This document shows, one piece after another, positions 3 through 33,256 of a DNA stretch of 41,298 nt (position 1 is its first letter; every line of letters starts with the position of its first letter). Below the pieces are notes generated by a model that had not been told where the DNA came from, did no database searches, and was given only the letters and a program-made list of their open reading frames with translations. The DNA is from a virus, in IMG/VR virus record IMGVR_UViG_3300042691_043531, positions 1 through 41,298 of that record, one strand, 5' to 3'. A program made the translations under genes and the position numbers.

Positions 3-74
3 GACTATGTCAAACCTGGATGGGGCAAAAAGCCCATAGCCAAGATTGGCCGCCATATATTTTATGGTAGTTAG
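3..74 (+). CDS. C-terminal end of a gene that begins before the window
   Basis: The frame is open from the window edge and ends with TAG at 72-74. Only 23 residues are visible, basic and aromatic (it contains KPGWGKKPIAKIGRH), so no family can be assigned. The next gene starts 11 bases later, which suggests co-transcription. It could be a chance open frame, but the stop position just before the next gene favours a real gene end. Confidence 0.45.
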   Translation, partial: DYVKPGWGKKPIAKIGRHIFYGS

Positions 75-85
75 TAGGACATTAA

Positions 86-457
86 ATGCCACTTTTAACT
101 TCAACCCGTAAAAAGCTAGAACTTCAAAAAACCATGGAAAATTCAAAAATTGACTTTGATCGTATTAAGAATCAAGTAGCTGAGTTCTTTACTACACACT
201 TTAGTAAAATCTCAGCTGACACAATGGGATGGCTAGCCGCTATAGCATTACATGCGGCTACTATTCCTACATTACTTGCACTTCTTACTGGATTGACTGA
301 TTCTACACCTAGCGTGGATGTTATACTATTTCTTTGGTTAGGATTGGTGCTATTGTTTGGTCGTGCAATTATCCTTAAAGATTTGCTTAACATATCTACT
401 ATTGGATTGGGTTTCGTAATTCAAGCAAGTTTAATGGCATTGATCCTGTTTAAGTAA
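86..457 (+). CDS. Small integral membrane protein, unknown function
   Basis: A 123-residue protein with a charged N-terminal third (residues 1-45) followed by three hydrophobic stretches at about 47-67, 77-94 and 100-122, probably spanning the membrane. No catalytic motif is visible. The first ATG is used here; an ATG at residue 17 (MENSK) is an alternative because neither site has a strong ribosome binding site. Short membrane proteins of unknown role are common in T4-like aquatic phages. The function is not recognised. Confidence 0.6.
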   Translation: MPLLTSTRKKLELQKTMENSKIDFDRIKNQVAEFFTTHFSKISADTMGWLAAIALHAATIPTLLALLTGLTDSTPSVDVILFLWLGLVLLFGRAIILKDLLNISTIGLGFVIQASLMALILFK

Positions 458-3896: not shown

Positions 3897-5723
3897 ATGA
3901 AAATCGAACCACTCAACCGTGTTGCAATAGCAAACATTGATTATCCGTTTTACATGGCAACTGATGGTCGTCCTGATCTTACTCCCGACGGTTTGCCAAC
4001 CACCGGTTTCGAAAACGTCAAAAAGACCGTGGATCGAGCCAAGAGCCTTGGTTTTGATGCAATTGCCATGAGGGTAAATGTACCAATTGATCTTTCAACT
4101 GGCGAACTAGTTCTAATGCTACCCGAGGGCTATAGAAATCGGGACAAATCATTTTCTCCTGAAATCTGGAAAATCATTGCCTATGCTGAATCTATAGGCA
4201 TGAAAAACATTATTGACTTTAGCATTGTTGATGTTCTCACCGATGTGGATTTAACAAAGTCGAGAGTGGGCGCCAATTTTGATGTTACAAAATTTTTCCA
4301 GTCAGTAAAAACTTTTGAAGTTGACGTAGCAAGGCAAGCACAAAACTACGGGGTTGAAAGCATACGAATTGGAATGATGAATTTTGGTTTTAGCGATAAC
4401 CCCAGTTACAAATCTTATTGGCAGGACCTAGTTGACTCTATTAGAAAAGTTTACTCGGGCACACTGGGTTATCAAGACTTGCTCTGGGAAAAGAACAACA
4501 TTGTGTGGGATATGGTTGATAACGCAATTGTTAGCTTTTTTCCAAATTTATCTGCTACACCAGTTTATGATGTTGAGAAGCTGGTGGATCTTTACAAGAC
4601 CACACAAAACCAAATCAATCAGCCTCATAATCATAATCCACACACTGAGTTGTTGGACTTTATTGCTCGATGGAAACACAAGAACATAATACTAAATGAC
4701 ATTTGGTTTCAACCTGGTCAACCTGGTGCAGGTAGATACATTGATATCAGTAGTTATGTTTGGAAGAAAGGTGATCTCGCTAACGAAGCCGATGAAATGC
4801 GTGTGTTTCCCGAGAATCAAATTGACTACAAATCTTTGGAGACACAGATACAGGCTTTTTTTGAGTACCTTGGAAACTACGTAGCAGACAAAGTTGTGGG
4901 TTTCGAATACTTTCAATATGCGCCATGGGCAGACGTAGCGTGGTTAAGATCTCCGAAAACTTTTAGTGATCAATCTTATCAGTCGACCATGCGGGCCAAG
5001 GGCTTCTTAAATTTGACCCCCCAAGCCGAAGAAGCCATCAGCCAATACATTTCTAGAGATTGGGGATTTAAAACCCTTCACTACGGCACGGACAAAGCCG
5101 ATCAACTGGCTGGATCTGAAGTTGATGATAAGTTTTTTGGTAGTACAGCTAACGATGTAATGGATGGTGGATCGGGCAAGGACACCGTCAAGTACACAGG
5201 CAAGCTGACTAGCTACACCGTCAGTCGCTCTGCCAATTCAGTATCGGTTGACAAGCCCAACTCCGGGCGAGATGTGTTGACCAACATAGAGCGACTGGTA
5301 TTCGACGATCGTGCCGTTGCTTTTGATGCCGACGGTACAGCTGGGCGTGGCTACCGCATATACAAAGCCGCTTTTGATCGCACGCCTGATACCGGTGGCT
5401 TGGGCTACTGGCTTGCTCAAATGGATCGGGGTATGGACATGGTTGAGGTCGCAGCTCGCTTTATCGATTCAGCCGAGTTTCGAACTCTCTACGGTCAAAA
5501 CCCGTCAAATGCCGACTTTTTGAGTAAGGTGTACAACAATGTACTTGATCGCAATCCCGATGCTGATGGGCTTGCTTGGTGGGTGAATGAGATGAAAACC
5601 AACCCATCAAAGACTTGGCAAAAGGTTTTAGCAGACTTCGCAGAGTCCACTGAGAATCAAGCTAATGTTGCGACTTTAATAGGCAACGGTATTGAGTACG
5701 ATCCATGGTCTAATGTTGTTTAA
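3897..5723 (+). CDS. TIM-barrel-like protein with RTX calcium-binding and DUF4214 regions
   Basis: A 608-residue protein. Residues about 1-385 resemble a glycoside-hydrolase-type TIM barrel: repeated strand-helix units, an early LGFDAIAMRV, IIDFSIVDVL, and aromatic-rich late strands (VVGFEYFQYAPWADVAW). Residues about 400-430 carry a short RTX-like calcium-binding stretch (DQLAGSEVDDKFFGSTAND, GGSGKD). Residues about 480-590 hold two copies of the DUF4214 unit (AFDRTPDTGGLGYW; VLDRNPDADGLAWW). RTX plus DUF4214 is typical of type I-secreted proteins and adhesins of proteobacteria, and no N-terminal signal peptide is seen, which fits. Base composition, especially after 5080, looks richer in G+C than its neighbours, suggesting acquisition from a host. 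A role on the virion or as a secreted enzyme is open. Confidence 0.7.
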   Translation: MKIEPLNRVAIANIDYPFYMATDGRPDLTPDGLPTTGFENVKKTVDRAKSLGFDAIAMRVNVPIDLSTGELVLMLPEGYRNRDKSFSPEIWKIIAYAESIGMKNIIDFSIVDVLTDVDLTKSRVGANFDVTKFFQSVKTFEVDVARQAQNYGVESIRIGMMNFGFSDNPSYKSYWQDLVDSIRKVYSGTLGYQDLLWEKNNIVWDMVDNAIVSFFPNLSATPVYDVEKLVDLYKTTQNQINQPHNHNPHTELLDFIARWKHKNIILNDIWFQPGQPGAGRYIDISSYVWKKGDLANEADEMRVFPENQIDYKSLETQIQAFFEYLGNYVADKVVGFEYFQYAPWADVAWLRSPKTFSDQSYQSTMRAKGFLNLTPQAEEAISQYISRDWGFKTLHYGTDKADQLAGSEVDDKFFGSTANDVMDGGSGKDTVKYTGKLTSYTVSRSANSVSVDKPNSGRDVLTNIERLVFDDRAVAFDADGTAGRGYRIYKAAFDRTPDTGGLGYWLAQMDRGMDMVEVAARFIDSAEFRTLYGQNPSNADFLSKVYNNVLDRNPDADGLAWWVNEMKTNPSKTWQKVLADFAESTENQANVATLIGNGIEYDPWSNVV

Positions 5724-12567: not shown

Positions 12568-12855
12568 ATGAAGTTAAGTCCAATTCGCGACCGTATTTTG
12601 GTCCGCCCAATCGAAGATACTAACGTAACTAAATCAGGTATCGTCATTCCAGATAATGCTACAGAAAAACCTATTAGAGGCAAAGTGCTTGCTGTGGGTT
12701 CTGGTCGAGTGTTAGATAACGGAACTGTTCTTCCTCTAGTAGTCAAGGAAGGTGACACCGTGCTATATGGAAAGTATGCTGGCACCACAGTAAAGTTAGA
12801 TAATGATGATCATATCGTTCTTAAAGAAGACGATATCTTAGCAATTGTAGAATAA
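12568..12855 (+). CDS. groES: GroES co-chaperonin
   Basis: A 95-residue protein, full length for the family. PIRDRILVRPIE, the mobile loop region (TKSGIVIPDNATEKPIRGKV), VKEGDTVLYGKYAGT and the final VLKEDDILAIVE are all present. It forms the heptameric lid of GroEL in the cytoplasm. It is encoded 19 bases upstream of groEL, as in bacteria. Expression is probably controlled through the hairpin leader shared with dnaK and hsp20. It looks intact and closely bacterial, unlike the divergent T4 gp31-type lid. Confidence 0.96.
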   Translation: MKLSPIRDRILVRPIEDTNVTKSGIVIPDNATEKPIRGKVLAVGSGRVLDNGTVLPLVVKEGDTVLYGKYAGTTVKLDNDDHIVLKEDDILAIVE

Positions 12856-12862
12856 ATTTTAA

Positions 12863-14500
<1,638 letters not shown>

Positions 14501-14503
14501 ATC

Positions 14504-14534
14504 TTGATAAAATAGGCGTTTTGTAGTATAAATA
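14504..14534 (+). promoter_or_regulatory. dnaK promoter, sigma70-like and late-type at once
   Basis: TTGATA (14504-14509), a 17-base spacer and TATAAA (14527-14532), which also forms an exact late box TATAAATA (14527-14534). Either polymerase form could use it. The predicted start falls at the base of the leader hairpin (14538). Confidence 0.7.
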
Positions 14535-14537
14535 AGA

Positions 14538-14591
14538 GTGTAGAGCGCCATTAGGGCTCTACACTTGCTTGCTTAATAAGGAGACAAAAAT
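14538..14591 (+). promoter_or_regulatory. Structured dnaK leader: 5' hairpin plus TTGCTTA box
   Basis: Nine-base arms GTGTAGAGC (14538-14546) and GCTCTACAC (14556-14564) enclose a bulged G (14547) and CC:GG closing an ATTA loop. TTGCTTGCTTAATAAGGAG follows. The arm sequences differ from those of groES and hsp20 while the top of the hairpin and the downstream box are kept. Without a U-run directly after the stem it is not a typical terminator. Confidence 0.65.
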
Positions 14592-16478
14592 ATGAGCACA
14601 ATTATCGGTATTGACCTTGGCACCACTAATAGTTGCGTAGCTGTTGTCGAAAACGGAACCCCCAAAGTAATTGAAAATTCAGAAGGCGCACGTACAACCC
14701 CTAGTATTGTTGCCTATACCGCAGAAGAAATTCTTGTTGGAGCTTCGGCAAAACGCCAAGCTGTAACTAATCCCAGAAACACTATCTACGCTGCTAAACG
14801 ACTAATTGGTCGTAAGTTCAAAGAACAAGCAGTACAAAAAGATATTGACCTAATGCCCTATAAAATCATCGAAAGTTCAAATGGTGATGCATGGGTAAAT
14901 GCAAATGATCGTGACCTAGCACCTCCGCAGATCTCAGCTGAAGTTCTTCGTAAAATGAAAAAGACCGCTGAAGATTATCTTGGTTACGAAGTAACAAAGG
15001 CTGTAATTACTGTACCTGCATATTTTAATGACAGCCAAAGACAAGCTACCAAAGATGCTGGTGCAATTGCTGGTCTTGAAGTCCTACGTATAATCAATGA
15101 ACCAACCGCAGCAGCTTTAGCCTATGGAGTAGATAAAAATGAAAAGACGGACCGTAAAATTGCTGTGTATGATCTTGGTGGTGGTACCTTTGATATTTCT
15201 ATTATTGACATCGCTAATGTGGATGGTGATAAACAATTCGAAGTACTTAGCACCAACGGCGATACCTTTTTAGGTGGCGAAGACTTTGATCAAAGATTGA
15301 TGGATTATTTGATCACTGAATTCAAGAAAGAATCAGGTGTTGATCTCAGCAAAGACGTTATGGCACTGCAACGCCTAAAAGAAGCGGCTGAAAAAACCAA
15401 GATTGAACTTTCAAATAGTACACAAACAGATGTTAACTTGCCTTACATCACTGCTGATGCAACAGGTCCCAAACATCTGAACGTAAAAATTACTAGAGCC
15501 AAATTTGAAAGCTTGGTAGAAGATCTAATTCAAAGATCAATCGAACCTTGCCGTCAAGCAATGCGTGATGCCGGTGTTTCACCTGCAGACATCGACGAAG
15601 TTATTCTAGTCGGTGGTCAAACCCGTATGCCTAAAGTTCAAGAAGCAGTTGAGCAACTGTTCGGCCGGGCACCTCGTAGAGATGTCAATCCAGATGAAGC
15701 TGTGGCAGTAGGTGCAGCAGTTCAAGGTGCTGTATTGGGCGGCGAGCGCAAAGACGTTCTGCTACTTGATGTCACTCCACTAAGCCTAGGTATTGAAACC
15801 ATGGGTGGAGTAATGACAAAATTGATTCAAAAAAATACCACTATCCCAACCAAGAATAGTCAAGTATTCAGCACAGCCGAGGATAACCAGCCTGCAGTCA
15901 CTATCAAAGTATTTCAAGGCGAACGAGAACTTGTACAACATAACAAACTGCTAGGCGAATTCAACTTGGAAGGTATTGACCCTGCACCAAGAGGTATGCC
16001 ACAGATTGAAGTCACGCTAGATGTTGATGCCAATGGTATTCTTAAGGTAAGTGCAAAAGATAAAAAGACTGGCAAAGAAAATAAGATTACTATCAAATCT
16101 GATTCCGGTCTAAGTAAAGAACAAATTGAAGAAATGATTCGCGATGCTGAAGCCAATGCTGATGCCGATAAAAAGCAACGTGAATTAATTGAAACACGTA
16201 ACCAAGCGGATTCGGTGATCCACAAGGTTAGAACTGATCTAAAAGAAGTCGAAGGCAAACTCTCTGCAGAACAGACGACTAAAATTAACGATGCTATCGC
16301 TGAACTAGAAAAAACGTTAACAGGTACAGACAAGGAAGCAATTACGACCAAGTTGTCAGAATTGTTCGTGGCCTCGAATGCAATTAATGAAGTAAAGCAG
16401 CCGTCAACTGCACCAGAATCTGATCCGCCTAAATCCGACGACGATGTGATTGACGCTGAATTTAAAGAAACAAAGTAA
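14592..16478 (+). CDS. dnaK: DnaK (Hsp70) chaperone
   Basis: A 628-residue, full-length Hsp70. The ATPase domain has [13 protein letters not shown] near the N-terminus, [24 protein letters not shown] and the [11 protein letters not shown] segment. The linker [19 protein letters not shown] leads to the substrate-binding domain and a helical lid. The end, [11 protein letters not shown], matches the bacterial DnaK tail that binds co-chaperones. No dnaJ or grpE is seen in the window, so it presumably works with host partners. DnaK is rare in phages; the copy looks complete and bacterial in origin. Confidence 0.97.
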
Positions 16479-16488
16479 AGAATATGCG

Positions 16489-16554
16489 GAGTAGATGCCT
16501 TCGGGGTCTACTCTCATATATGTCATAACTTGCTTAATGAAAGGAGAACGTATT
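16489..16554 (+). promoter_or_regulatory. Structured hsp20 leader: UUCG hairpin plus TTGCTTA box
   Basis: Arms GAGTAGA (16489-16495) and TCTACTC (16507-16513), a T:G pair, a bulged G (16497), then CC:GG closing a TTCG loop, a very stable tetraloop. TAACTTGCTTAATGAAAGGAG follows, ending just before the ATG at 16555. The upstream sequence at 16477-16484 (AAAGAATA) is only a degenerate late box, at the same spacing as in groES and dnaK. Confidence 0.6.
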
Positions 16555-16992
16555 ATGACAACATATATAACAACTTTTGATTTACCTACACTAGCTCGTC
16601 ATGCAGTGGGCTTTGATAGACTGTTCAATGAGCTTAATCGTACTTTTGCTAACAGCAAAACTAACGACAACTATCCTCCGCATAACATTGTACAAATTGA
16701 TGAAACACATTATGCTATTCAACTGGCCGTTGCTGGTTTTGCTGAGGATGAGCTAGACATTGAATACAAAGACAATGTTCTAACAGTGAGAGGGGAAAAG
16801 AAGGAAAAAGAAGAGCTGACTTATCATTATCGTGGTATTAGCTCGCGTAACTTTACACGCAGTTTTCCTCTAGCCGATCATATGGAGGTCCGCGGAGCAA
16901 CTGTAGTAAATGGTATTTTAGCAATCAGTATCGAGCATATTATTCCCGAAGAAGCTCGGGCAAAAAAGATTGCAATTACCTTCGCTAAGTAA
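16555..16992 (+). CDS. Hsp20 small heat-shock protein (IbpA-like)
   Basis: A 145-residue protein. The ATG at 16555 is chosen because AAAGGAG lies before it; a TTG-initiated extension would run through the leader hairpin. The alpha-crystallin domain spans about 38-130 (IQLAVAGFAEDELDIEYKDN, LTVRGEKKEKEE, RNFTRSFPLADHMEV, VNGILAISIEH). A short C-terminal tail follows without a clear I-x-I motif after the domain. It holds unfolded proteins for DnaK and GroEL to refold, which fits its position after dnaK. Small heat-shock proteins are known in cyanophages and other T4-like phages. Confidence 0.93.
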   Translation: MTTYITTFDLPTLARHAVGFDRLFNELNRTFANSKTNDNYPPHNIVQIDETHYAIQLAVAGFAEDELDIEYKDNVLTVRGEKKEKEELTYHYRGISSRNFTRSFPLADHMEVRGATVVNGILAISIEHIIPEEARAKKIAITFAK

Positions 16993-16998
16993 TATAAT
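16970..16998 (+). promoter_or_regulatory. Near-consensus sigma70 promoter for clpS
   Basis: TTGCAA (16970-16975), a 17-base spacer and a perfect TATAAT (16993-16998). It lies over the end of hsp20 and should start RNA at about 17005, within the first bases of the clpS hairpin. clpS can therefore be expressed without the late system. Confidence 0.75.
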
Positions 16999-17001
16999 AA
17001 C

Positions 17002-17023
17002 GTAGGGGGAGCGATCCCCCTAC
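17002..17023 (+). promoter_or_regulatory. 5'-terminal hairpin in the clpS leader
   Basis: Perfect 8-base arms GTAGGGGG (17002-17009) and CCCCCTAC (17016-17023), with a loop that reads as GCGA (GNRA type) closed by A:T. It sits at the predicted RNA 5' end, as in the chaperone leaders, but lacks the bulged G and the TTGCTTA box. It could protect the 5' end, or end hsp20 transcription weakly (no U-run follows). Confidence 0.6.
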
Positions 17024-17039
17024 ACAAATAGGAATCAAA

Positions 17040-17351
17040 ATGAGCAAAACTGACATTGTAGTCAAACCTAAAATTCAAGTACGCACTAATATTTTACCTC
17101 CTAATTTGTTTAACGTAATTTATCTAAACGATAATGTGACTACTATGGAATTTGTAGTAGAATCATTAAAAAACATTTTTCATCACTCAGAAGAAACAGC
17201 TTTAGAGTTGACACATAAAATACATGAGGAAGGATCTAGTGTTGTTAGCACACTTCCTTATGAGATTGCCGAACAAAAAGGTGTAGAAGCAACACTACTT
17301 GCTCGCAACAATGGTTTTCCACTCAACGTTAAATTAGAACCAGCGACATAA
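17040..17351 (+). CDS. clpS: ClpS adaptor of the ClpAP protease
   Basis: A 103-residue protein, full length for ClpS. The core FNVIYLNDNVTTMEFVVESL, the helix around HSEETALELTHKIHEEG and the strand VSTLPYEIAEQKG are family hallmarks. ClpS binds proteins with destabilising N-terminal residues and hands them to ClpA. A phage copy could redirect host ClpAP, either toward host proteins or away from phage ones (inference). No clpA or clpP is in the window. It completes the chaperone/proteolysis island and abuts the next gene (TAA then ATG). Confidence 0.92.
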   Translation: MSKTDIVVKPKIQVRTNILPPNLFNVIYLNDNVTTMEFVVESLKNIFHHSEETALELTHKIHEEGSSVVSTLPYEIAEQKGVEATLLARNNGFPLNVKLEPAT

Positions 17352-26524: not shown

Positions 26525-27770
26525 TCACTTTGGAAAAATCGTTGAAAGTTTAGTAAACGAAATAAGTTCCAATGTTAAAGCCAAAGTTGATGACATTATC
26601 AACGTTTCTGTTACAGAAAAATTATCTGCGTTCAAATTTGAAGATTTTATTCAATCAGCAGCTACGGCAGCAATGGAGAAAAAAATTGCTGAATATACCA
26701 TTGATCAAAAAAAATTAGAAAATAGAATTGTTGGCAGAATCAATGAAGTTATCAAAGAAGCAGAAACAAAAACCAATTTAGAAATCGACGAAGCAGTCAA
26801 AAATAGAGTGTCTGGCAGTAACTTCAACGAGGTTTTAACAAGCAGTTTGAGTAGAATTATCTCGGATAGAATCAGCGAATTTGTTTTCCCAGACAATAGT
26901 ATACCTGCTTCTAGTTTGAAATTTGACAATTTTAAAATCAGCGGAGATCACATCCAGGGCGGTATTATTTCGTCATTTAGTAGTGTTGGTATAGACGACA
27001 GAGCCACACAAGTGGCAGTAACTATCCTCGATGAAGTAACCGTAGTTGAAAATAATTTAGTAACCAAAGACCTCACAATCGAAGGTGCAATGACTGTTAA
27101 TGGCAAATTTGTTGTTAATGGCGAAGTTCCAAAAGAAACCAAATTCTTTAAAGATTTAGTAAGTGAATCATCAACAGCTACAGTAGAAAAAATAGATTCA
27201 AATCTTTTTGAAAATTACAGCAGAATTATTTTTGACAAAATTCGTAATGAAGGTTTAGATCTAAATAAAATTACTTTAAATAACACTGAGATTATTCATA
27301 ACAATGCATTAGGGCCTTCGGTTGTGAATAGTAACTTACAAAAACTAGGTACACTAAAAGAATTGCAAGTAAGTGGCGAAGCATTGTTGTCGGAGTCTTT
27401 GTATGTCACACGTGGTAGGATAGGTATCAATACCATTGAACCTAGTGCTTCATTGTCAATCTGGGATGACGAAATAGAAATAACTGCCAGTAAAAGGCAA
27501 AAAGATATGGGAAGTTTTGGAACACCAAGACCTCAACAGTTGACCTTATTTGCCAACAACAAGAACAATATTATTTTGGAAACAGATGGATCTGTTCAAA
27601 TAAATGATTTAAGAATTGGTCCGATGCGATTTACTTCTGCAGATCGTCCTCCTAACTATGTAAGCGAAAGAAACCATATTGTTTGGAATACCAATCCTAA
27701 TCCAGGTGGACCGTTAGGATGGGTTTGTCTTGGTGGATCAAACTGGGCAAACTTTGGTATAATTGATTAA
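26511..27770 (+). CDS. Tail-fibre-like structural protein
   Basis: A 419-residue protein; the ATG at 26511 is chosen over a TTG three codons before. Residues 1-130 are a long coiled coil with repeated helical segments. The centre (about 170-300) has short beta repeats (TVVENNLVTKDLTIEGAMTV). The C-terminal region (about 300-419) has the pattern GRIGINTIEPSASLSIWDDE then GWVCLGGSNWANFGIID, like phage fibre tips. Trimeric fibre architecture is likely. It starts inside the previous gene and ends one base into the twitch radical SAM gene. No enzymatic motif. Confidence 0.7.
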   Translation: MDISDHFGKIVESLVNEISSNVKAKVDDIINVSVTEKLSAFKFEDFIQSAATAAMEKKIAEYTIDQKKLENRIVGRINEVIKEAETKTNLEIDEAVKNRVSGSNFNEVLTSSLSRIISDRISEFVFPDNSIPASSLKFDNFKISGDHIQGGIISSFSSVGIDDRATQVAVTILDEVTVVENNLVTKDLTIEGAMTVNGKFVVNGEVPKETKFFKDLVSESSTATVEKIDSNLFENYSRIIFDKIRNEGLDLNKITLNNTEIIHNNALGPSVVNSNLQKLGTLKELQVSGEALLSESLYVTRGRIGINTIEPSASLSIWDDEIEITASKRQKDMGSFGTPRPQQLTLFANNKNNIILETDGSVQINDLRIGPMRFTSADRPPNYVSERNHIVWNTNPNPGGPLGWVCLGGSNWANFGIID

Positions 27771-29080
27771 TGTTCAACAAAACTTTTTGTTCAAGCCCAT
27801 GGTTTCACGTGAGACTAACCTACGACGGTAGTTTTGAATCATGCCGTTGGGCGAAAAATCCACAACGTACCAACAAATTTCCAAATACTACGCTTTTAGA
27901 ATACTACAATAGCAATCAACTGAAAGCAATAAGACAAGACTTATTGCAAGGTCGCTCATTAGAAATTTGTTCAAATTGTCATTACGAGGAATCATTCAAT
28001 AAAATCAATGGACGCCTTAGGCAATTGAACAAGAGTGCAATTGATGTTGACAATTTTGATCTTACATTACGTAGCAGTCCGCACTATGAAAATTTTCTTT
28101 ACAGTTACGAAAATCAAGGCTTGGCTAATTTATCCCCAGTCGACTTACAAATTGAACTAGGTAATATTTGTAATAGTGCCTGTATAATGTGTACACCAGA
28201 AGCTAGCAGTAAACTAGCGTCAGACTACGTAAAATTAAATGAAAAAAATCCTACACTTTTCGCTCGACCTAGTCAATATACAGCATGGAACAGAGATCCT
28301 AAAAATTTACAACAGTTCATTGACGAATTGGTCAGTATTCCTAACCTAAGATATATTCATTTTTTAGGTGGTGAAACACTTTATGAAGAATCCTTCTACA
28401 CTATATGTGAACATCTAATAGAAAAAAATATTGCTAAAAATATTATCATTGGTACAACTACAAATGGAACAATCTACAACACTAGAATTGAAAAATTTAT
28501 TCAAAACTTTAAACAATTTCATCTGGGCATCAGTATAGAGTCTGTAAGTGAACTAAACGATTACATTCGTTGGCCCAGTCAAATTCAAAATGTTTTAGAA
28601 AACGTTGATAGTTTTTTGCAGTTGAGAAAGTCAAATCCGGGATTATACATATCTTTACGCATTACTCCAAATATTTTTACTATATCACAAATTGATCAAC
28701 TTTTTCTTTACATGATCGAAAATCAAGTCATTGCCGAAAGTTGTAACATATTAAGTGAGCCCGAATGTTTGCGTATGGAATTACTGCCTGATGATTTAAG
28801 AGCTGTAGTTAAAGAAAAATTATCAAATTTAATAGAAAAGTATAATCTTTATAAAGAGAACGTTATTAATGTTCGTAGGTCAGATCAGATTTCTCAAGTG
28901 ACTGCTAATACAGTAGTAGATTACTATAAATTTATTTGTGATTATGAACAGCCGCACAATATCGAAAAACTTAGATATGATTTAGTAAGTTTTATCAAAA
29001 CTTTTGAATCAATTCGCAACAATTCAATTTTACATTATGTTCCATCTTATGAAAAATTTCTCAGACATTACGGATATTAA
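27770..29080 (+). CDS. Radical SAM protein with N-terminal twitch-type cysteine region
   Basis: A 436-residue protein. C134-x3-C138-x2-C141 is the radical SAM cluster motif and GGE at 200-202 the usual SAM segment. An N-terminal region with C7, C25, C67 and C70 forms the twitch-like part. It is a paralogue in layout of the enzyme at 710-1873, with different flanking genes: here it follows a fibre-like gene, sharing a TAATG junction. Modification of a fibre or of a small molecule is possible; the substrate is unknown. It overlaps the next gene by 32 bases. Confidence 0.85.
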   Translation: MFNKTFCSSPWFHVRLTYDGSFESCRWAKNPQRTNKFPNTTLLEYYNSNQLKAIRQDLLQGRSLEICSNCHYEESFNKINGRLRQLNKSAIDVDNFDLTLRSSPHYENFLYSYENQGLANLSPVDLQIELGNICNSACIMCTPEASSKLASDYVKLNEKNPTLFARPSQYTAWNRDPKNLQQFIDELVSIPNLRYIHFLGGETLYEESFYTICEHLIEKNIAKNIIIGTTTNGTIYNTRIEKFIQNFKQFHLGISIESVSELNDYIRWPSQIQNVLENVDSFLQLRKSNPGLYISLRITPNIFTISQIDQLFLYMIENQVIAESCNILSEPECLRMELLPDDLRAVVKEKLSNLIEKYNLYKENVINVRRSDQISQVTANTVVDYYKFICDYEQPHNIEKLRYDLVSFIKTFESIRNNSILHYVPSYEKFLRHYGY

Positions 29081-29396
29081 CTTAGAGCAAAAGTTAAAAA
29101 TCCAAATAGAATTTTTGGAACATAACAATCCCGTTTACTTGTTCAAATTAAACGGATTGCCAATCCAAAAAATCATGCATCTTGGACTACTTGACCATTT
29201 ACATTTTTCTTGTTTAATATCGCAAGGTGCAATTGAAATTGTAAAAATCTGTGTAAACACTAAGGAAATTTTGCCGTTATATCTCAATCGTGCCAATCCT
29301 CCAACAAATTGGATAACTCAAAATTGGCAATTTAATATAGACAAACCATTTTATCCGTGGTATCATGAAATAACCGGTCAAGGTTGGACGGCTTGA
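29049..29396 (+). CDS. Conserved phage protein after the radical SAM gene
   Basis: A 115-residue protein from the ATG at 29049, chosen over a longer frame starting deeper in the radical SAM gene. No membrane segment or cysteine motif. The end, FYPWYHEITGQGW, is rich in aromatics and resembles a domain recurring in T4-like aquatic phages (recalled). It overlaps the radical SAM gene by 32 bases, and its stop lies within the -35 region of the next promoter. The function is unknown. Confidence 0.55.
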   Translation: MKNFSDITDINLEQKLKIQIEFLEHNNPVYLFKLNGLPIQKIMHLGLLDHLHFSCLISQGAIEIVKICVNTKEILPLYLNRANPPTNWITQNWQFNIDKPFYPWYHEITGQGWTA

Positions 29397-29421
29397 CCTA
29401 ATCAAAATATACTGCTATAAT
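29393..29421 (+). promoter_or_regulatory. Near-consensus sigma70 promoter abutting an ATG
   Basis: TTGACC (29393-29398), a 17-base spacer ending in TGC and a perfect TATAAT (29416-29421). The ATG at 29427 is five bases past the -10, at the place transcription should start, so the message would be leaderless. It drives the tandem array of small genes up to 31951. Confidence 0.75.
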
Positions 29422-29426
29422 GCAGT

Positions 29427-29654
29427 ATGACTACCTTAGTTCTAGATAAAAAACATTGGTTGGATATTAGGACTCGTATCACTCAAGAATACGGGGATAC
29501 ATTCTTTTTGATCCGATCAAGGGTAGAACGAGAATTGGGTTTTACCAGTCGCAATTACAGAGAATGGTATTACGAAACCGGATGGCAAGAGGATATGAGG
29601 TTGGATTTCAAGGATCCGACTAGAGCAACTTTCTTTCAATTGAAATATCTATGA
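29427..29654 (+). CDS. Small protein with C-terminal F-x-LK motif, array member 1
   Basis: A 75-residue protein ending FKDPTRATFFQLKYL. The last 15 residues follow the pattern shared by most of the next genes: a phenylalanine strand, then N/D-rich turn, A-x-x-F-x-L-(R/K)-(W/Y). The rest is charged and helical. It opens the array behind a strong promoter and overlaps the next gene (ATGA). No function is known. Confidence 0.65.
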   Translation: MTTLVLDKKHWLDIRTRITQEYGDTFFLIRSRVERELGFTSRNYREWYYETGWQEDMRLDFKDPTRATFFQLKYL

Positions 29655-30001
29655 CTACTAATGCTTATCTAGTTTATTGGTGTGAAGAAGGCTTGGAGAG
29701 TGTGGTTCCAATTACCGAGTATGAGCACATCGATCGAGATAACACATTCCGATTGTTAAATAATCAAGATACAGTTCGTAATCCTGTAAATCAAATTATC
29801 CAAAATATGATTTTGAGAGCTCGAGTTAATGGACAGAGACATTATGAATTGTATGCGGTAGATTGTGATAGTAGCATTGATAAACAACATATTGAAAAAT
29901 TATTCGAAACTGATCCTCAGTCAGCAGCTGATTTGTTTAGACAGCGCGGCCACAAATTGTACAGTGATCGTTCCGAACGAAATCGTATTAAAATTGTATG
30001 A
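29651..30001 (+). CDS. 116-residue protein within the small-gene array
   Basis: It begins at an ATGA junction with the previous gene and ends at one with the next. YLVYWCEEGLESVVPITEYE and HYELYAVDCDSS are strand-like; the C-terminal part is helical and basic (RGHKLYSDRSERNRIKIV). It lacks the array's C-terminal motif, so it is a different family. No function recognised. Confidence 0.65.
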   Translation: MTTNAYLVYWCEEGLESVVPITEYEHIDRDNTFRLLNNQDTVRNPVNQIIQNMILRARVNGQRHYELYAVDCDSSIDKQHIEKLFETDPQSAADLFRQRGHKLYSDRSERNRIKIV

Positions 30002-30219
30002 AACTAGTATGGGTGAAAGACGAGCGCAATTCATTAATACTTTGGGCAAGAATGCAATACGACCACGGAGCGATTACCACTACCGGTATGAGATCTGAAC
30101 ATCTAGATCCTGTGCAAGATTGGTGTATGCACAATAGATGTGGACGTAGAACCAGTTTTGAAATGTTCAAGTTTCGCAACGAAGAAGAAGTAACTATGTT
30201 TTTACTTAAATGGGGATAA
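29998..30219 (+). CDS. Small protein with FLLKW ending, array member 2
   Basis: A 73-residue protein. The start KLVWVKDERNSLILWARMQY is strand-helix and the end MFKFRNEEEVTMFLLKWG is the shared C-terminal motif. The ATG overlaps the previous stop. Two cysteines at about 42 and 47 (WCMHNRC) could bind metal but are not conserved in the other members. Confidence 0.6.
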   Translation: MKLVWVKDERNSLILWARMQYDHGAITTTGMRSEHLDPVQDWCMHNRCGRRTSFEMFKFRNEEEVTMFLLKWG

Positions 30220-30220
30220 T

Positions 30221-30430
30221 ATGGAAATGATCACTGTTTGGCTATTAAGCATACAATTTTGGAATGACCCGCCTCCGGCTATGAAGTTTGTGTATACTAA
30301 AGAGTTTCCTACTCATGAAGAGTGTATAGCAGCTAGAGAGAAGTGGATAGAAACACAAAAACCTGATCGAGAAAAATTTCAAACGTTATGTTTACAAAGA
30401 AATAAAAATGTCAACACTGTGGGAAGATAA
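30221..30430 (+). CDS. Small protein with two cysteines, no array motif
   Basis: A 69-residue protein. MITVWLLSIQFW could be a weak signal or membrane anchor. C35 in HEECIAAREK and C57 in QTLCLQR could pair if it is exported. It overlaps the next array gene by 23 bases. It lacks the F-x-LRW ending. The function is unknown. Confidence 0.55.
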   Translation: MEMITVWLLSIQFWNDPPPAMKFVYTKEFPTHEECIAAREKWIETQKPDREKFQTLCLQRNKNVNTVGR

Positions 30431-30644
30431 AAAAGGTAGATTTATTGCTACCGGTCCTTTTGATGAAGAAATGCCACATTACTATATCATTATAAGTGAT
30501 TATCGTTGGTGGACTGACAATGAAACTGAGATATATACTTGGATGGATCAGTGTTTGCCCAGAGGACGTAATCATCAACAGGGAATGGTTGTGGTTATAG
30601 AAGACCAAGCAGATGCTAGTAACTTTTTACTGAGATGGCAATAG
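30408..30644 (+). CDS. Small protein with FLLRW ending, array member 3
   Basis: A 78-residue protein. The body is YYIIISDYRWWTDNETEIYT, then a basic loop, and the end VVIEDQADASNFLLRWQ fits the shared motif. It overlaps the genes on both sides (23 and 10 bases). The repeated strand-helix-strand-helix layout with the motif last suggests a small ferredoxin-like fold (inference). Confidence 0.6.
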   Translation: MSTLWEDKKGRFIATGPFDEEMPHYYIIISDYRWWTDNETEIYTWMDQCLPRGRNHQQGMVVVIEDQADASNFLLRWQ

Positions 30645-30847
30645 TAACATTATACGATATTGATGAAGATAAACTTAGTCAATGGGCTATTGAAAACTGT
30701 CCAAATTTTATCAGCTGGTTAATTATTGAAAATAGCGAAGCTCTAATGTTTATAGGCGACAATGTTGATTGGCATATTCGTTATGAATTTGAATTCGCCA
30801 ACGAACAGGAAGCACTGCTATTTCAACTTAGGTGGCAAGGACAATGA
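30635..30847 (+). CDS. Small protein with FQLRW ending, array member 4
   Basis: A 70-residue acidic protein. DKLSQWAIENCPNFISWLII is the first helix-strand and YEFEFANEQEALLFQLRWQG the shared C-terminal motif. It overlaps the previous gene by 10 bases and the next by 4 (ATGA). No function recognised. Confidence 0.6.
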   Translation: MAIVTLYDIDEDKLSQWAIENCPNFISWLIIENSEALMFIGDNVDWHIRYEFEFANEQEALLFQLRWQGQ

Positions 30848-31212
30848 ATCCTAGTCTTGAACAAGATATGCAGGACAACAAATGGTTTGTTGACAAGGTA
30901 CGAGCCACCAATTCCTATGCTCAAAATGTTTATGCAGCATTGTGTAACAATACATTTCAAAAACTTGAAGTTATATCGGTACTCAAGGATGAAGTTTGGT
31001 CGTGTACTTGGCGCTATGCCGGCGGGCTGGTAGCAAAGTTACGCCGCGAGGGCGACTACATGGATTGGTACTGCTCTGGTATGGGATTTGCCGGTGATGA
31101 AGGATACATTGAAAATGGGTATGTGCATGAATCTCACATCACCGACGAAGTAAGAGAGGATCTCAAACAGCTTGGATGGATAGCGTTAGAAAATAATTCA
31201 GACGATCTATGA
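30844..31212 (+). CDS. 122-residue protein within the array
   Basis: The ATG at 30844 makes an ATGA overlap with the previous stop and is preferred to a GTG four codons earlier. The protein has LRREGDYMDWYCSGMGFAGD in the centre and a C-terminal helix. It lacks the array motif and is longer. Composition in 31020-31080 looks richer in G+C. Unknown function. Confidence 0.6.
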   Translation: MNPSLEQDMQDNKWFVDKVRATNSYAQNVYAALCNNTFQKLEVISVLKDEVWSCTWRYAGGLVAKLRREGDYMDWYCSGMGFAGDEGYIENGYVHESHITDEVREDLKQLGWIALENNSDDL

Positions 31213-31406
31213 TGCAATACTTCAACAAAAAATATTGGCCGCATCAGTTTCGTATGCTACCAGAATTGGATGCCTGGGAACAAGCCTGCAGATTAGAAGC
31301 CTATTGTATTGATAATTTTGAACGCGGTACCTGGCGTTCAAATGGTTTGTATTTTGCCTTTCAAAATCAAACGGATGCTACACTTTTTTTATTAAGATGG
31401 GGATGA
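31209..31406 (+). CDS. Small protein with FLLRW ending, array member 5
   Basis: A 65-residue protein in an ATGA junction with the previous gene. LPELDAWEQACRLEAYCIDN is a helix; the end LYFAFQNQTDATLFLLRWG is the clearest copy of the shared motif. No function recognised. Confidence 0.6.
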   Translation: MMQYFNKKYWPHQFRMLPELDAWEQACRLEAYCIDNFERGTWRSNGLYFAFQNQTDATLFLLRWG

Positions 31407-31407
31407 T

Positions 31408-31698
31408 GTGAGTCATGAAGTCACTAGAATTAAATTTGAAAACATCCCCGGTAATTTAGATTATAAATTTATGCTAGACTGGTTAGAACGTTACATTGAG
31501 TCGGCAAACAAACATGACAAAGATACTGGCAATCCTATTCCGTATTATGCCAGTGCTACCAGCCAATTTGCTAAGTTTGCCGGACAAACCAGCCTGTGGC
31601 ATTTGGAAATAAGAGGCCCGCATCTGAAAACAATAGTAGAAATAACAGATCCAAAATTAGCAATAAAATTTGCTTTAGAGTGTACCAATGCCAAGTGA
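31408..31698 (+). CDS. Small protein with FALE ending, divergent array member 6
   Basis: A 96-residue protein starting at GTG, one base after the previous stop. The middle helix DYKFMLDWLERYIESANKHD is followed by a strand pair and VEITDPKLAIKFALECTNAK, a weaker form of the array motif. It overlaps the next gene by 11 bases. The GTG start is the only one that keeps the coupling. Confidence 0.55.
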   Translation: MSHEVTRIKFENIPGNLDYKFMLDWLERYIESANKHDKDTGNPIPYYASATSQFAKFAGQTSLWHLEIRGPHLKTIVEITDPKLAIKFALECTNAK

Positions 31699-31951
31699 AA
31701 TAAGAATACCGTATACTAAAATTGTACAACAGTCTGATCAAATTGATTCGTGGCTAGTTACTAATGCTGGTGTCGGATCGGTAAGGTATGGGGGCCGCGA
31801 AGGAGAAATTCGGCATTGGTTAAATGGCGATGATTGGTTGTATTATGTACAATACCCAATGGCCGAACAAGCACCACTTGAAGAAAGTGTAACTGTTTAC
31901 ATCTTTAAAAATGAACGCACAGCTACAGAGTTTGCACTAAGATTTGCATGA
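31688..31951 (+). CDS. Small protein with FALRF ending, array member 7
   Basis: An 87-residue protein. QSDQIDSWLVTNAGVGSVRY, then a tryptophan- and tyrosine-rich strand, and VYIFKNERTATEFALRFA as the shared C-terminal motif. It is the last gene of the array; its stop abuts the next promoter's -35. No function recognised. Confidence 0.6.
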   Translation: MPSEIRIPYTKIVQQSDQIDSWLVTNAGVGSVRYGGREGEIRHWLNGDDWLYYVQYPMAEQAPLEESVTVYIFKNERTATEFALRFA

Positions 31952-31980
31952 TTGACTAGTTATTCTAAACTTGCTATAAT
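31952..31980 (+). promoter_or_regulatory. Near-consensus sigma70 promoter close to an ATG
   Basis: TTGACT (31952-31957), a 17-base spacer ending in TGC and a perfect TATAAT (31975-31980). The ATG at 31989 is eight bases past the -10, so the message has zero to about two leader bases. It begins the 31989-uvsE operon. Confidence 0.75.
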
Positions 31981-31988
31981 ATATCACT

Positions 31989-32237
31989 ATGCATACAGAC
32001 GCTCTTGGTAAATCAATTAGTGTAGATGATTATGTGGCTTTCCCTCAGGCCAATCGGCTCATGATTGGCAAAGTTGCAAAACTAAGCAACAAGATGCTGA
32101 TTATTGAAGCTGTTGTGAAAAAACGGATCAATCGTCGCACAGGTGAATACATAGAAACATATCGCAAATACCCCAAAGATAGTGTTATAGTAGACAAGGA
32201 TGCAGGACTTACAATGTATGTTATAAGGCACTCATGA
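31989..32237 (+). CDS. Small beta-rich (KOW/SH3-like) protein
   Basis: An 82-residue basic protein. DALGKSISVDDYVAFPQANR, then KVAKLSNKMLIIEAV and YPKDSVIVDKDAGLTMYVI, is the strand pattern of small SH3/KOW-like barrels. Similar small proteins are familiar from T4-like aquatic phages. A nucleic-acid or ribosome contact is possible by analogy. It overlaps uvsE by 4 bases (ATGA). Confidence 0.55.
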   Translation: MHTDALGKSISVDDYVAFPQANRLMIGKVAKLSNKMLIIEAVVKKRINRRTGEYIETYRKYPKDSVIVDKDAGLTMYVIRHS

Positions 32238-33256
32238 TTGGACGAATAGGCTTTGCCTGCAAGTGGTTGAATGATCCTAGCGAATGCGGCGGCATGAAGG
32301 TCAATGCAAAGGATAGAGATCTTAATGGCCGTAGCACCACCATGCGTTGGCTGCGAGAACATCCCGAGGAGGCCGAACAGCGCCAGTGGGATATCATGAA
32401 TCATAACGCTACCGCGGCAGTTAAGATGGTTGAGCGTGTAGCCACGCTGCCAGCTGAACGCAGAATGGTTAGACTTGGCAGTGAAATGCTGCAAGGCTAT
32501 ACTGAACCCAATTGGATAGACTGGTGGCAGCAAGCAGATGTGCAGCAACATCTAGAACGTATCTTTGCGCCCATTGGCGAAACTGCCAGAAGATTGGATG
32601 TGCGACTAAGTTTTCATCCTGGACAATTTTGTGTTTTGGCCAGCGAAAACGATAACATTGTTGAAAGATCAATTCAGGAGTTTGAATATCATGCAGATAT
32701 GGCAAGATGGATGGGCTATGGCCGTACGTTCCAGGACTTTAAAATCAATGTACACATCTCAGGCAAACGCGGTCCGGCTGGAATCCGTAATGCGCTCCAG
32801 CGACTCAGTCCAGAAGCAAGAAACTGTATCACAATTGAAAACGACGAAATGTCATGGGGACTCGAAGCCAGTCTCGAATTGGTCAACGATTGTGCATTGG
32901 TATTAGACCTGCATCATCATTGGATCGCAAGTGGAGAATACATTGACCATAGAGATGATCGTATCAAGAGGATTCAGGATAGCTGGCGTGGTGTGCGCCC
33001 TGCTTGTCATTACAGTATTAGTAGGGAAGATGTTCTGGTGGGCCATGACTCTAATGTACGACCTGATCTTGAAACTCTTTTAGCAACGGGATACAAGAAA
33101 CAAAAATTACGAGCACACTCTGACTTTGCTTGGAATCGTGCTTGTAATGAGTGGGCGTTGCAACACGGTACCTGGGCCGATATCATGGTCGAAGCCAAAG
33201 GCAAAAACTTAGCTAGTGGTCAATTATACGAACAATATCTCGAGCAAGCTGATTAG
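32234..33256 (+). CDS. uvsE: UV damage endonuclease UvsE (UVDE)
   Basis: A 340-residue TIM-barrel enzyme. GRIGFACKWLN begins the barrel. HPGQF (128-132), the strand KINVHISGKRG, IENDE (201-205) and LDLHHHW (224-230) are family hallmarks and metal-binding positions. UVDE nicks DNA 5' of pyrimidine dimers and other lesions, starting an alternative repair route, useful for phages in sunlit waters. Full length for the family. It is co-transcribed with the small gene upstream. Its last 44 bases overlap the convergent glycosyltransferase-like gene. Confidence 0.92.
   Translation: MIGRIGFACKWLNDPSECGGMKVNAKDRDLNGRSTTMRWLREHPEEAEQRQWDIMNHNATAAVKMVERVATLPAERRMVRLGSEMLQGYTEPNWIDWWQQADVQQHLERIFAPIGETARRLDVRLSFHPGQFCVLASENDNIVERSIQEFEYHADMARWMGYGRTFQDFKINVHISGKRGPAGIRNALQRLSPEARNCITIENDEMSWGLEASLELVNDCALVLDLHHHWIASGEYIDHRDDRIKRIQDSWRGVRPACHYSISREDVLVGHDSNVRPDLETLLATGYKKQKLRAHSDFAWNRACNEWALQHGTWADIMVEAKGKNLASGQLYEQYLEQAD

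Follow-up and report, generated by a model that had tools for sequence, protein, structure and literature searches.

A phage-specific family of small proteins forms tandem arrays in large phages and includes members with N-terminal segments of the major capsid protein

Capsid proteins are common triggers of bacterial defence systems, including CapRel and Lit (PMC9712102). The Lit protease of Escherichia coli e14 is activated by Gol, a stretch of 29 residues within the first quarter of the T4 capsid protein gp23 that is the most conserved part of gp23 and binds EF-Tu (PMC3014915). Large lineage-specific expansions of tiny proteins are likewise known from a jumbo phage, as in the zinc ribbons of Bacillus phage G with about 35 copies (PMC7824862). 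Here, we describe a family of small phage proteins that resembles the latter in its expansion but is built on an unrelated domain, occurs in many large phages instead of one, and includes members with capsid segments. In T4, Gol belongs to the complete capsid protein, whereas in these chimeras the corresponding region sits on a separate small protein, fused to a phage-only domain. Moreover, CapRel-SJ46 and other capsid-sensing defences are host systems, whereas the present proteins are phage-encoded and their binding to a sensor is hypothetical. In the non-subscription literature, the terms used brought up no account of this family or of arrays with capsid fragments. The novelty lies in a family that matches nothing known and in the architecture with capsid segments, even though the function might yet turn out to be a familiar one.

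The window, i.e. the whole stretch of 41,298 nucleotides analysed (IMG/VR virus record IMGVR_UViG_3300042691_043531), contains ten successive small ORFs at 29427-31951 that overlap or abut each other (Table 1), with the overlaps located where a preliminary description of this DNA had placed them. That description had counted seven of nine consecutive genes sharing a C-terminal motif; the array and the motif were borne out, but the count had to be corrected to six, perhaps seven, of ten. Six of the ORFs (g1, g3, g5, g6, g8, and g10) end in A/V-x-x-F-x-L-R/K-W/Y/F and agree with the conserved C-terminus of the family, F-x-F..D-A-x-x-F-x-L-K/R-W with a W-bearing helix upstream. The profile search that had been proposed recovered all six among 225 window ORFs, using an HMM of 71 members from unrelated contigs from which window sequences and their orthologues were excluded (E from 6.5e-11 for g8 to 0.0015 for g1; best reversed-protein control, E = 0.17). 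Furthermore, none of 8,891 reversed ORFs matched the family profile at E<0.1, and the motif regex found nothing among 7,817 ORFs of shuffled DNA. Membership of g9, which is missing from the relatives L018, L019, and L021 (G, L, and W numbers are our labels for other phage sequences), is doubtful. Synonymous codons vary freely at the conserved motif positions, so conservation resides in the protein, and a DNA-level repeat as the source of the motif was ruled out. Special 10-nt overlaps created by an ATG inside the K/R-W codons were also considered and rejected, as 21 of 132 members show them, but the usual -4 position of many likewise offers an in-frame ATG.

Table 1. Coordinates of the array, its promoters, and segments or replacement genes in other phages. 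Window features are given in nucleotides of the window and phrog_138 matches in positions of that family.
Feature	Location	Strand	Length (aa)	Remarks
Promoter before g1	29393..29421	+		sigma-70-type, TTGACC-N17-TATAAT, extended -10; 11/12 match
g1	29427..29654	+	75	family member, most divergent, RATFFQLKYL end; HMM E=0.0015
g2	29651..30001	+	116	array passenger without motif; kept in relatives
g3	29998..30219	+	73	family member; HMM E=3.5e-9
g4	30221..30430	+	69	outside family, without motif; weak phrog_5579 match (unknown function), E=1.7e-4
g5	30408..30644	+	78	family member; HMM E=4.2e-7
g6	30635..30847	+	70	family member; HMM E=3.5e-10
g7	30847..31212	+	121	array passenger without motif
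g8	31209..31406	+	65	family member; HMM E=6.5e-11
g9	31408..31698	+	96	possible degenerate relative (AIKFALEC); HMM E=0.29
g10	31688..31951	+	87	family member, ATEFALRFA end; HMM E=2.7e-6
Second promoter	31952..31980	+		sigma-70-type, extended -10; 11/12 match; just upstream of g11 (31989), closes array; present in L016
phrog_138 match, G002	47-102			
phrog_138 match, L081/G035	57-83			
phrog_138 match, G042	62-88			
phrog_138 match, L094/G025	177-245			
phrog_138 match, L013/G026	184-233			
phrog_138 match, Phosso 114 kb	361-412			
phrog_138 match, G004, G011, G027				weaker
DnaB-like P-loop pair, first member	G003:171852-172280 (=L087:4402-4830)			family member
DnaB-like P-loop pair, second member	G007:190150-190629			family member
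Radical-SAM replacement in L018	L018:7013-8311			
Radical-SAM replacement in L019	L019:7024-8313			

A common fold, a further expectation of the preliminary description, is supported by AlphaFold2 predictions for two members, as g8 (pLDDT 87, 43 sequences) and g5 (pLDDT 73) share a beta-alpha-beta-beta-alpha core, to which g5 adds an extra N-terminal strand. In this predicted fold (beta1-alpha1-beta2-beta3-alpha2), the motif covers beta3, an Asp helix cap, and alpha2. Truncated ferredoxin-like and DCoH-like small folds have the same order of elements and a weak Foldseek resemblance, but the structural match is not significant and the family lacks the last strand of the ferredoxin-like fold. 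A structural search of the PDB gave no match at E<=0.001, and the matches in BFVD are uncharacterised phage proteins. Since the weak BFVD matches include Bro proteins (best E about 0.7-1), the members might be small nucleic-acid-binding proteins in which a beta-hairpin plus helix resembles part of the Bro-N domain. This is extremely improbable, as these matches are below significance and span only ~40 residues, no significant PDB match exists, and no Pfam match to Bro-N was obtained.

Beyond the window, degenerate DNA patterns for D-A-x-L-F-x-L-R/K-W-G-stop together with an orthologue search with g5 yielded ~130 distinct members. Profile searches of whole phage records then gave 53 matches in a 607-kb record, 48 in the Sinorhizobium phage Phosso (469 kb), and 33, 29, 22, and so on in further records. 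Re-scoring parts of 12 large-phage records resulted in 252 distinct members, including 65 in the 607-kb record and 46 in Phosso (counts from parts of these records), with no reversed match at E<0.1. The proteins are mostly 65-130 aa long (median 89 aa), the domain ends within ~10 residues of the C-terminus in >90% of cases, and the densest arrays hold up to 22 members in 7 kb. The family profile had no match in 12 bacterial genomes, and among 29 stretches found by a pattern scan of genome contigs just one, judged spurious, coincided with the 3' end of a small ORF. Nothing in Pfam, PHROGs, NCBIfam, or the PDB sequences matched the domain above chance level, the one other signal being phrog_138 on N-terminal segments. 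Window members found nothing significant among isolated phages by tblastn, showing that profiles are needed to detect relatives. Fusions to known enzymes were sought in ten long members, none of which has a significant Pfam domain. As judged from these searches, this is a phage-specific family undescribed in the libraries searched, which have wholly missed it although large phages contain hundreds of its proteins, with as many as ~65 in a single genome.

Some members, all outside the window, begin with a piece of the T4-type major capsid protein (the Gol region, helix 163-222, or residues 333-360) and have the family domain at their C-terminal end. The PHROGs profile of the T4-type major head protein, phrog_138, matches such short array ORFs at four capsid regions (Table 1), and a comparison of 124 N-terminal regions with all 38,880 PHROGs matched two families, both of them major head proteins. 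None of the chimeras is a full-length HK97-type capsid protein, since the matches cover only 27-69 of the 444 profile positions. Four of 300 member N-termini aligned to the capsid by hhalign at probabilities of 72-97, whereas none of 300 non-member small ORFs reached a probability of 50, and the extension of the L013/G025 type aligned at E 5e-8. The N-terminal helix of the GW type, 'I..EI..kAA.EiA.aID.EvL..L', aligns to capsid residues 195-222 with a score of 34.4, whereas the runner-up among 130 core profiles scores 16.3. Column shuffling, done 100 times and compared with capsid alignment A5, on which the real helix scores 32.9, gave at most 20.8. Taken together, these profile comparisons establish a capsid origin for some member N-termini. 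Recognisable capsid segments occur in a small minority, about 5-10 of some hundreds of members.

The T4 Gol region aligns with three chimeras (G002, L081, and G042), which share IRxxMP..IA..I.GV[QS].. with gp23 residues ~94-120. We take this segment to be Gol, with presumed boundaries, because it is conserved and lies within the first quarter of gp23. The Gol part is retained in two diverged homologues, G002 and G042, and the GW-type helix is still recognisable across divergent members. Both facts speak against the idea that the capsid segments are functionless relics of illegitimate recombination in a fast-shuffling array, with the domain alone being of importance. Random capture should moreover sample many genes, yet the PHROG matches are to the capsid only. 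Gain, loss, and movement of genes in the arrays would fit such relics, as would a Gol-like stretch in Phosso (PV764938, 182289-182411, L262), which belongs to no family member and lies between two radical-SAM genes, in frame upstream of the annotated start (182439) of a hypothetical protein. We give this explanation a slim chance.

Two further observations concern the origin of N-terminal regions. A homologous pair of members carries an N-terminal segment resembling the Walker A region of a phage DnaB-type helicase (Table 1); the resemblance is weaker than in the capsid case, but indicates that the capsid is not the sole source of segments. In a common type of 97-100 aa (L090:819-1124 and its relatives L003, L038, L042, L085, and others), the stretch YYSGGDWWEEKD aligns weakly (probability 4-9%) to capsid residues 126-141, which probably reflects chance.

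The six members in the window contain no firm capsid segment, but two of them are linked to chimeras. The nearest relative of g8 outside its own lineage is the Gol chimera G002:75486-75833 (phmmer E=1.4e-8), of which G042 carries a diverged homologue. No Gol-region sequence was found in g8 itself, whose start coincides with the point just past the end of the Gol segment. The ORF orthologous to g3 in L021 is a GW-type member with an N-terminal extension resembling capsid helix 195-222; another GW-type protein is a member inserted in G030.

The capsid segments, including the Lit-triggering region, provide the first concrete clue to the role of the arrays. An attached capsid piece suggests binding of whatever normally recognises the shell protein, and with a probability of roughly 0.4 we favour the reading that the family comprises scaffold-domain binding proteins acting in phage-host or phage-phage conflict, a subset of them by capsid mimicry. 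The domain would serve as a scaffold holding a variable binding surface, as N-terminal regions and loops vary, and each product of the array, which would be made from a strong promoter, may bind a different protein of the host or of a rival phage. Carriers of a capsid segment would be competitors of the genuine capsid protein for whatever binds it, with host capsid sensors (Lit- or CapRel-like), EF-Tu, chaperones, or the assembling head of a rival as candidates. The preliminary description had suggested inhibitors or adaptors; the chimeras, which it could not know of, lend more weight to binding in the course of conflict. The rarity of capsid segments, the lack of a clear one in the six window members, and the DnaB-like pair speak against the favoured reading.

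The frequent use of the capsid protein as an immune trigger, e.g. by CapRel-SJ46 (PMC9712102), offers a rationale for mimics. In a narrower version of the favoured reading, arrays displaying pieces of the phage's own major capsid protein or other surfaces would act against the capsid-sensing immunity of bacteria, either as decoys or by competitive antagonism, forming a self-mimic library renewed by tandem duplication. This version is unlikely in our estimate, and the fact that the Gol peptide activates Lit counts against it and the favoured reading alike, because a decoy would have to bind without triggering. If mimicry were true, parts of a phage's capsid would be its weapon against immunity that senses capsids, and Phosso, as an isolated phage, makes this testable.

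Alternatively, the proteins could be capsid-assembly modulators or virion components, the capsid segment allowing them to join the growing head of their own phage or of a rival, to set its pace, or to poison it. The segments are indeed drawn from several regions of the capsid protein itself, the virion of Atu_ph07 contains many unassigned proteins (PMC6102473), and a standalone ORF of 58 aa outside the family (G025:81469-81645, L213) resembles capsid residues 167-212, several kb from the array. Most members, however, have no capsid segment, and the capsid gene is distant from the arrays (in G001, at 137 kb with arrays at 10-21 kb; in W01, at 247 kb with arrays at 114 kb), making a role in assembly quite improbable.

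Duplication and divergence of one small domain, as proposed for the window, is corroborated by the common predicted fold, by adjacent near-duplicates (e.g. 63% identity, 7 bp apart), and by a change in copy number, G030 having 11 members in the slot that holds six in the window. Close relatives differ in the stretch from the g1 promoter to g11-UvdE, where genes have disappeared, been added, or changed place; g10, for example, is relocated to a position after g1 in L023. As the best relative of 141 of 186 members is found in another genome, most duplications appear to be old. Array content turns over in this way despite purifying selection on orthologues: median dN/dS for the six members is 0.075-0.18 (gene-wide averages, with several dS values near saturation), about equal to the neighbouring UvdE (0.065) and tail-like (0.13) genes. 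The suggestion of arms-race selection is therefore unsupported at the level of orthologues, where dN/dS of about 0.1 is not raised over core genes, and the absence of positive selection there counts against a role in conflict. Under the favoured reading, duplication would create new binders, and successful ones would then be retained by purifying selection.

The array is preceded by one predicted strong promoter, as described before, with an extended -10 box. It is kept before g1 in L016, L018, L021, and L023 despite differing upstream DNA, and its core is present in nine IMG/VR stretches, with one copy in the window. An ACTGC/GCAGT palindrome is centred on the -10 box and could be an operator. 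As the -10 box ends 5 nt ahead of the g1 ATG, the transcript is probably leaderless, and we infer leaderless and probably regulated transcription of the array. At both window promoters the -10 box is followed after 5-8 nt by the start codon, so that leaderless transcripts are probable for each.

A strong sigma-70-type promoter and a compact, overlapping array would also be expected of generic host-takeover proteins, each paralogue inhibiting a different host enzyme early and the capsid segments being incidental fusions in a few. The high divergence between paralogues and their dispersed accessory positions in phage genomes are consistent with this. It leaves unexplained, however, why the N-terminal PHROG matches are all to the major head protein, and at several separate capsid regions, and we consider it somewhat unlikely.

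Upstream of the array, a tail-like gene is followed by a radical-SAM gene (27770-29080), which is swapped for a 28-31% identical one in two relatives (Table 1) and missing from this slot in L016. The members were also considered as RiPP precursors of this nearby enzyme, which was rejected because their conserved part is C-terminal and folded, and which is contradicted by the absence of the gene between the tail-like gene and g1 in L016. Elsewhere in the window, a chaperone and proteolysis block (12568-17351) comprises ORFs that read as GroES, GroEL, and DnaK, followed by Hsp20 and a ClpS adaptor (Pfam E 2e-24), and positions 3897-5723 encode a 608-aa protein with GH113-like, RTX calcium-binding, and DUF4214 domains. 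The UvdE UV-damage endonuclease encoded directly behind the array (32234-33256; Pfam E 2e-31) is well conserved in relatives.
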